Below, piece by piece: positions 17,259-22,657 of a stretch of 34,563 nucleotides of DNA. A program made the translations under genes and the position numbers. The DNA comes from Polyangiaceae bacterium (GTDB taxonomy: Bacteria > Myxococcota_A > Polyangia > Polyangiales > Polyangiaceae): assembly GCA_020848455.1 (NCBI GenBank), contig JADLAB010000450.1, positions 1-34,563 on the forward strand. The letters run 5' to 3'. Each line of letters starts with the position of its first letter. Position 1 is the stretch's first letter. Below the pieces are notes generated by a model. It did no database searches. It was not told the origin of the DNA and saw only the letters and a program-made list of their open reading frames with translations.

Positions 17259-21107
<3,849 letters not shown>

Positions 21108-21122: not shown

Positions 21123-22082
21123 TCAGGCAGTTCGGGCGGCTCGGGCGCGCACCGTGCGCGCCGCGAACGCGGTGATGACCTCGAAGTGGGGCTTGCGCGA
21201 CTCGCGCGAGCTCACGGCGCAGTGCGACACCACGAGCCCCGCCCCCTCGAGCAGGCGCCGCAGCGCCGCGGGCGTGAAGCCCGCGTTCACGTGGCCGTAG
21301 CGCGCCGCGAGCTCGGCGTGGCGGTGGGCGCGGAGCGCGATGACCGCGAGCACGCCGGCGGGCCTCAGCACGCGCGCCGCCTCGCGCACCACCGTGTCGG
21401 GCGCGGTCGCGTACGCCAGGCTGTTGAAGCACAGGACGGCGTCGAAGCACGGCGACTCGAACGGCAGGGCGTGCATGTCCGCCACCGCGTAGGCCACGTG
21501 CGGGTGGCGCCCGAGCCGGCGCCGCGCCTCGGCGATCATCCGCTCGCTCCGGTCGAGGCAGGTGATGCTCCGCACGCGCGGTGCGAAGAGCTCGGCGATG
21601 GCCCCGTCGCCCGAGCCGACGTCGAGCACGTCGCCCAGCGACACGAAGCCGAGCAGGCCGCGCGCCGTCGCCTCCCAGGTGCGCCCGGGCGAGTAGTGCC
21701 GCTCGAGCTGCCCGGCCACCGAGTCGGGCCAGCTCTGCGCGCCGGCGCGCGCGCGGATGAGCGCCGCCGCGCGCTTCCGGTCCTCGGCGAGCACGGCGTC
21801 GGCGAGCTCGCCCGCCACCGCCCCCCACAGCCGCTGCGCGGCAGGCGGCATCGCGCCGTCGTTGAGCCCGTAGTAGGTCGAGCTCCCGCTCGGCCGGTCG
21901 CGCACCAGGCCCGCCTCCTTGAGCTTGCCGAGGTGCGTCGAGACGCGCGACTGGCCGAGCTCCGTGATCTCGGTGAGCTCGGCCACCGTGTGCGGCGCGT
22001 GGGCCACGAGCGCCAGCAGCCGCACGCGGGTGGGGTCCGCGAACAGCTGCGCGAGGTCGACCGTGGCTTCGAGGCTCGTCAT
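21123..22082 (-). CDS. ArsR-family regulator fused to a SAM-dependent methyltransferase domain (SahR-like)
   Basis: 319-aa fusion. Residues 1-80 form a winged helix of the ArsR/SmtB type (LAQLFADPTRVRLLALV, then TELGQSRVSTHLGKLKEAGLV as the recognition region). No metal-binding Cys box is present. Residues about 120-300 form a class I methyltransferase with motif I DVLDVGSGDG (151-160), an acidic LDRSERMI strand end and a VADMHALPF motif. Such fusions next to methionine-cycle genes are known from SahR-type regulators that sense S-adenosylhomocysteine or SAM; that link is family knowledge, not proof. Being upstream of metH in the same operon, and preceded by a palindrome over its promoter, it probably represses its own operon when methylation balance changes. 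Confidence 0.9.
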   Translation of the reverse strand: MTSLEATVDLAQLFADPTRVRLLALVAHAPHTVAELTEITELGQSRVSTHLGKLKEAGLVRDRPSGSSTYYGLNDGAMPPAAQRLWGAVAGELADAVLAEDRKRAAALIRARAGAQSWPDSVAGQLERHYSPGRTWEATARGLLGFVSLGDVLDVGSGDGAIAELFAPRVRSITCLDRSERMIAEARRRLGRHPHVAYAVADMHALPFESPCFDAVLCFNSLAYATAPDTVVREAARVLRPAGVLAVIALRAHRHAELAARYGHVNAGFTPAALRRLLEGAGLVVSHCAVSSRESRKPHFEVITAFAARTVRARAARTA

Positions 22083-22097: not shown

Positions 22098-22121
22098 ATC
22101 CGCTCATCATGATGTACGGAT
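22098..22121. promoter_or_regulatory. 24-bp imperfect palindrome, probable ArsR-MTase operator
   Basis: Outer arms ATCCG (22098-22102) and CGGAT (22117-22121) plus a perfect central CATCATGATG (22105-22114); only the two positions between arm and centre on each side fail to pair. 20 of 24 bases are symmetric. It overlaps the predicted -10 of the ArsR-MTase/metH operon and lies 16 bp before its start codon. Length and two-part symmetry fit a winged-helix dimer. Confidence 0.7.
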
Positions 22122-22145
22122 ACCAAGCCCGAGCCGACCGGTCAA
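22117..22145 (-). promoter_or_regulatory. Promoter of the ArsR-MTase/metH operon
   Basis: Read on the minus strand: TTGACC (22145-22140), a 17-bp spacer and TATCCG (22122-22117). The -10 overlaps one arm of the palindrome, so a bound repressor would block RNA polymerase. Confidence 0.6.
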
Positions 22146-22189: not shown

Positions 22190-22657
22190 ATGAGCCACGA
22201 CGCCCCGACCCCGGTCTTCGAGGACGAGTACGACGCGAGCCACCCCGAGGCCCTGGCGCTCTACTGCTCCGACGGGCGCTTCACGCGCGGCGTCGAGCGT
22301 CTGATGCAGCACCTCGGGCACGACCGGCTCGACACGCTCACGATGCCGGGCGGTCCGGCCTTGCTCGAGACGAAGAGCGCCGCCCTCGTCGAGGTGGGCG
22401 CCGTGCGCAGCGCGCTGTCCTTCCTCGTCGACGGTCACCACATCAAGGAGCTGCTGCTGGTGGCGCACGCGGGCTGTGGCTACTACCGGCGGCGCTACCC
22501 CATCCACGAGCCGGCGCAGATCCACGCGCAGCAGCTCGCCGATCTGCGCGCCGCGGCGGCGTGGGCCCGGCGGGCGCTCACCGTCGCGTCCATCGACCTC
22601 TTCTACGCCACGACCGAGCACGGTCGCGTCGCCTTCCACGCGGTGCCGGCCGACTGA
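22190..22657 (+). CDS. Beta-carbonic-anhydrase-superfamily protein, short and divergent
   Basis: 155-aa protein with the zinc-site pattern of beta-carbonic anhydrases: Cys26-Ser-Asp28-Gly-Arg30 (LYCSDGRF) and His93-Ala-Gly-Cys96 (VAHAGCGYY). Zinc ligands Cys26, His93 and Cys96 and the catalytic Asp-Arg pair are therefore all present. It is shorter than usual beta-CAs (about 200 aa) and lacks a recognisable N-terminal dimerisation arm. It could hydrate CO2, or belong to one of the beta-CA-fold groups with other activity. The next-to-last part carries Tyr-rich and Arg-rich loops (YYRRRYP). ATG 22190 is preferred over an upstream in-frame ATG (22109) because of the promoter hexamer just before it and the conserved region starting soon after. 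Confidence 0.7.
   Translation: MSHDAPTPVFEDEYDASHPEALALYCSDGRFTRGVERLMQHLGHDRLDTLTMPGGPALLETKSAALVEVGAVRSALSFLVDGHHIKELLLVAHAGCGYYRRRYPIHEPAQIHAQQLADLRAAAAWARRALTVASIDLFYATTEHGRVAFHAVPAD

Follow-up and report, generated by a model that had tools for sequence, protein, structure and literature searches.

What does the palindromic sequence in front of a methionine synthase operon do in a Polyangiaceae bacterium? The question was raised by an earlier note on a 34,563-nucleotide stretch of this genome (contig JADLAB010000450.1; hereafter the window), which had placed a 24-bp palindrome over the promoter of a gene fusing an ArsR-type regulator to a methyltransferase, followed by metH. Our analysis indicates that the palindrome very probably serves this ArsR-methyltransferase/metH operon as its operator, overlying the promoter. 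The features concerned, from high to low coordinates, are the following:

22140..22145, minus strand: -35 box TTGACC; 47 of 64 orthologs, where about 1.5 are expected, have TTGAC at most 45 bp 5' of the operator, for the most part at one of two set distances.
22117..22122, minus strand: -10-like element TATCCG, overlapping one operator arm and separated from the -35 box by a 17-bp spacer.
22098..22121, no strand: predicted SamR-type operator, an imperfect 24-bp palindrome with four conserved ATC/GAT triplets and a single exact genome match.
21123..22082, minus strand: samR-like gene, 319 aa, encoding an ArsR-family HTH domain (residues 16-61) and a class I SAM-dependent methyltransferase domain (about 150-250).
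17259..21107, minus strand: metH, B12-dependent methionine synthase, 1282 aa (TIGR02082, PRK09490, five Pfam domains).

The fusion protein matches the Pfam families HTH_5 (6e-14) and Methyltransf_11 (5e-23), and its AF2 model (pLDDT 82.6) combines a winged-helix region with a methyltransferase region. Both of its properties described in the earlier note, the missing metal box and the intact SAM-binding motif, were upheld. The HTH domain contains no cysteine and the cysteine metal site of metal-sensing ArsR/SmtB proteins is absent, the only cysteines of the fusion (175, 212, 218 and 288) all lying in the methyltransferase part. The cofactor site of the methyltransferase domain is, to judge from its residues, intact: G158, D159, G160, D177, D202 and M203 do not vary among 40 orthologs, and comparison of the model with SAH- or SAM-bound methyltransferases, the best solved structures, gave Z about 20. 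A search by sequence found no solved structure of such an ArsR-methyltransferase fusion. Few stretches of the family are as well conserved as the linker WPDSVAGQLERHYSPGRTWE (residues 118-137); model confidence is low over residues 116-131 despite this conservation, and the linker may become ordered upon ligand or DNA binding.

The window reads ATCCGCTCATCATGATGTACGGAT at 22098-22121. The position of the palindrome and its overlap with the -10 were as the earlier note had given them, but only 10 of the 12 pairs are self-complementary, the centre CATCATGATG being perfect. By itself this symmetry is unremarkable and not significant, as expected by chance at the GC content of the window (74%), where 24-mers this symmetric are common: the window holds 19 with 10 of 12 pairs, and 30 simulations under a first-order Markov model gave 15.1 on average. 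Unlike symmetry, sequence conservation is significant and provides the decisive evidence for the 24-mer. Upstream of the fusion gene, orthologs from both Myxococcota and Lysobacterales retain the core ATCNNNNNATCNNGATNNNNNGAT, and the conserved element common to the two can be written ATC-N5-ATC-N2-GAT-N5-GAT. Its triplets ATC, ATC, GAT and GAT, at operator positions 1-3, 9-11, 14-16 and 22-24, are nearly invariant over 63 loci. The site lies just 5' of the gene in 63 non-duplicate fusion orthologs, well above the shuffles of each upstream region that served as its control, although the scoring is somewhat circular, the weight matrix having been trained on the clear cases. At six fusion loci, all gammaproteobacterial to judge from their record titles (L053, L057, L059, L074, L079 and L087), the motif is absent from the 170 bp examined. 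In the 9.2-Mb genome of the host, the core has one exact match, at the focal site, and no match with one mismatch, where 0.06 core matches are expected from the trinucleotide frequencies of the window. Because the core is kept across two phyla and occurs once in 9.2 Mb, the site is more than a product of chance.

The promoter TTGACC-17-TATCCG proposed in the earlier note for the fusion and metH has the coordinates claimed for it, reading on the minus strand from TTGACC (22145-22140) through TATCCG (22122-22117) towards the fusion ATG at 22082. Its -35 element recurs far above expectation, with 19 of 28 myxococcotal orthologs (0.6 expected) and 28 of 36 others (0.9 expected) having TTGAC at most 45 bp 5' of the operator. 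TATCCG agrees with TATAAT at only three of six positions; it recurs in equal register at L010 and L014, with similar sequences at L020, L021 and L035. Since the -10 is weak, we are unsure of the exact promoter geometry at the focal site. In most orthologs the distance from TTGAC to the first base of the operator is either 24 bp, as at the focal site, which puts the -10 inside the operator, or mostly 29-32 bp, with the -10 (GACAAT or CACAAT in many Lysobacteraceae) ending directly before the operator. In the latter arrangement the operator overlies the probable start of transcription together with the ribosome-binding region. Both spacings would fit a repressor competing against RNA polymerase. 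The intergenic region is shared with a divergent gene on the plus strand (22190-22657), a putative carbonic anhydrase (Pro_CA_2) that is present in the sister genome at L038 and was not found at L039.

The other member of the operon is well defined: metH exceeds the cut-offs of both NCBIfam TIGR02082 and PRK09490 and has all five Pfam domains. Its start lies 15 bp from the stop codon of the fusion, and the order fusion then metH holds in nearly all ortholog loci. The host assembly (9.2 Mb in 742 contigs, given as 96.5% complete) has as its nearest named relative a Myxococcales MAG with 96% protein identity. As metE was not found in this assembly, MetH is apparently the sole methionine synthase of the host. 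Riboswitch control was rejected, as neither the window nor the ahcY, metK and metF loci gave an Rfam riboswitch match.

The earlier note had further predicted a regulon with copies of the palindrome near other genes of the methionine cycle. For the host this did not hold: no focal-type site was found at ahcY, metK or metF, and none of the 25 core sites with two mismatches in the genome scores above 11.1, whereas the focal site reaches 26.5, so that a genome-wide regulon was rejected. The regulon in the host looks like a single operon, samR-metH only. Outside the host genome, in G020, a SamR-type site (L153:4782-4805) precedes a stand-alone second metH (62.7% identical) that has no adjacent fusion gene, the leader running for roughly 165 bp before the MetH match; the site thus seems to track metH, beyond the regulator gene. 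In Luteimonas mephitis, a second site lies 5' of a transporter gene of the Na+/H+ antiporter family, which we take to include the methionine transporter MetT, and this transporter may be of the MetT kind. Together, the second metH of G020 and this transporter suggest that the site is tied to the pathway, beyond autoregulation. Among 19 relatives, no good site was found at ahcY, metK or metF except at ahcY of G010, where an ahcY-linked ArsR-methyltransferase (L160:443-1300; 32% identity to the focal protein, on a long branch) follows the SamR-type site ACCCTTTCATCCGGATTGACGGAT (score 19.8).

Other sites in relatives were noted in passing. A perfect 24-bp palindrome, ATCCGCTCATCCGGATGAGCGGAT, lies about 1 kb 5' of an encapsulin gene in G048 (L145:4337-4360). 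In G066, a strong second site (L237:4263-4286, score 29.1) precedes a 321-aa ORF and a PMT-type glycosyltransferase; the ORF has no Pfam match, and no methionine link was seen. Exact core matches in G009, G017, G028, G031, G049 and G050, as well as in G040 (C13) and G041 (C2, C18, C85 and C147), were set aside as chance-like, since the majority are internal to ORFs and no recognised methionine gene was seen next to any of them.

Could the fusion nevertheless be SahR itself, responding to SAH and repressing the SAM cycle as a whole, with the palindrome as a SahR box? The two share family, pathway, autoregulation and metH as a target, and the core regulon of SahR includes ahcY and metH (PMC4239095). 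The SahR motif is described as a 20-bp palindrome; the focal motif spans 24 bp. However, the focal box is lacking at ahcY, metK and metF, and the host encodes another ArsR-methyltransferase directly 5' of ahcY (L233:4008-5189, G000:C11), 37% identical to the focal protein where aligned. An ArsR-methyltransferase stands directly before ahcY in most of the relatives examined. In a tree of ArsR-methyltransferases made without a verified SahR sequence, these ahcY-linked proteins form one clade, with a fully supported main group inside it, separate from the focal protein. Their promoter-operator is also different, TTGCAT-N17-TATA enclosing YAT-N4-AT within the spacer; in the host copy, TTGCATCTATCTACAAGAATGCATATAG, the two boxes fit and the spacer part fits less well. 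By its position, the ahcY-linked fusion looks like a SahR-like regulator placed for separate control of ahcY. The comparison with SahR-type regulators in the earlier note pointed to the right kind of protein, but the fusion is closer to SamR, a distinct clade, and the SahR-like protein of the host is the one adjoining ahcY. We regard the focal fusion being SahR itself as improbable.

We give less credence still to the fusion being an active methyltransferase, acting for instance on arsenite or a metabolite, with autoregulation in addition, as in ArsRM, and an incidental link to metH. The SAM site is intact, H264, G268, E294, P298 and F300 are invariant outside the cofactor motifs, and a bifunctional ArsRM has been published (PMC10190100). 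Set against this are the cysteine-free HTH domain, the absence of ars genes among the window ORFs scanned, and the very constant partnership with metH, including the trans target in G020. That the palindrome arose by chance or for structural reasons and has no regulatory role is hardly credible, for common as such symmetry is at 74% GC, this reading is contradicted by conservation over two phyla, the single core match in 9.2 Mb and the fixed distance to the -35 box.

The reading that we prefer, and hold with high confidence, is that a SamR-type repressor, the ArsR-methyltransferase fusion, uses the site as an autoregulatory operator and controls both its own gene and the neighbouring metH. Dimers of the regulator would bind ATC-N5-ATC-N2-GAT-N5-GAT over the -10 and the transcription start, and bound dimers would block RNA polymerase, resulting in repression. 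The methyltransferase domain would act as sensor of a methyl-cycle nucleoside, whose identity and direction of action we infer. SAM as co-repressor is our first guess, although it could fall either way; SAH as inducer comes second, a real possibility but a lesser one. When methyl supply is short, the operon would be expressed and MetH would remake methionine from homocysteine, while the paralogous SahR-like fusion would control ahcY separately. Speculatively, Myxococcota might read SAM and SAH separately through a SamR-type regulator (24-bp operator, metH) and a SahR-like one (distinct operator, ahcY), the cell gauging its methylation potential by two one-ligand repressors; we see this as possible rather than probable.

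Among solved structures, the best Foldseek match of the fusion model is a Rv2258c-type winged-helix methyltransferase solved with SAH bound (5f8e). Identity is about 19% and the whole-chain rmsd 13-15, so that only the methyltransferase domain is safely comparable.

The closest known system is SamR, a distant SahR homolog predicted for Xanthomonadales only, lying beside metH with a 24-bp palindrome and an unknown effector (Leyn et al. 2014, PMC4239095). In that work SAM was argued to be the effector, as SAM-cycle genes except metK fall outside the regulon, and the delta-proteobacterial set lists Desulfovibrionales and Desulfuromonadales (PMC4239095). Searches of an open library of papers turned up neither experimental work on SamR nor measurements of binding or expression for any member. 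As in SamR, the ArsR-type regulator gene adjoins metH, and a 24-bp palindrome lies upstream of the two. The focal protein is about 50% identical to box-carrying Lysobacteraceae proteins, one of them from Stenotrophomonas, and falls on the Lysobacteraceae side of the tree, away from the ahcY-linked paralogs; the focal and Lysobacteraceae loci share the 24-bp core. In contrast to the published Xanthomonadales regulon, that of the myxococcotal host is narrower, with one site in the genome and none at metF or metK. The SamR-type gene is patchy in Myxococcota: at the threshold applied, 27 of the 237 genomes have it. Myxococcotal and gammaproteobacterial proteins group largely apart in the tree, which does not suggest recent transfer. 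On sequence grounds, the focal unit is thus a SamR-type member, new for Myxococcota. It would extend SamR, predicted until now only in Xanthomonadales, to another phylum with an operator core almost unchanged, and the focal site supplies an exact operator prediction open to testing. With a SamR-type and a SahR-like regulator in the same genome, a question that dates from 2014, namely whether SamR senses SAM or SAH, can be approached by a clean comparison.
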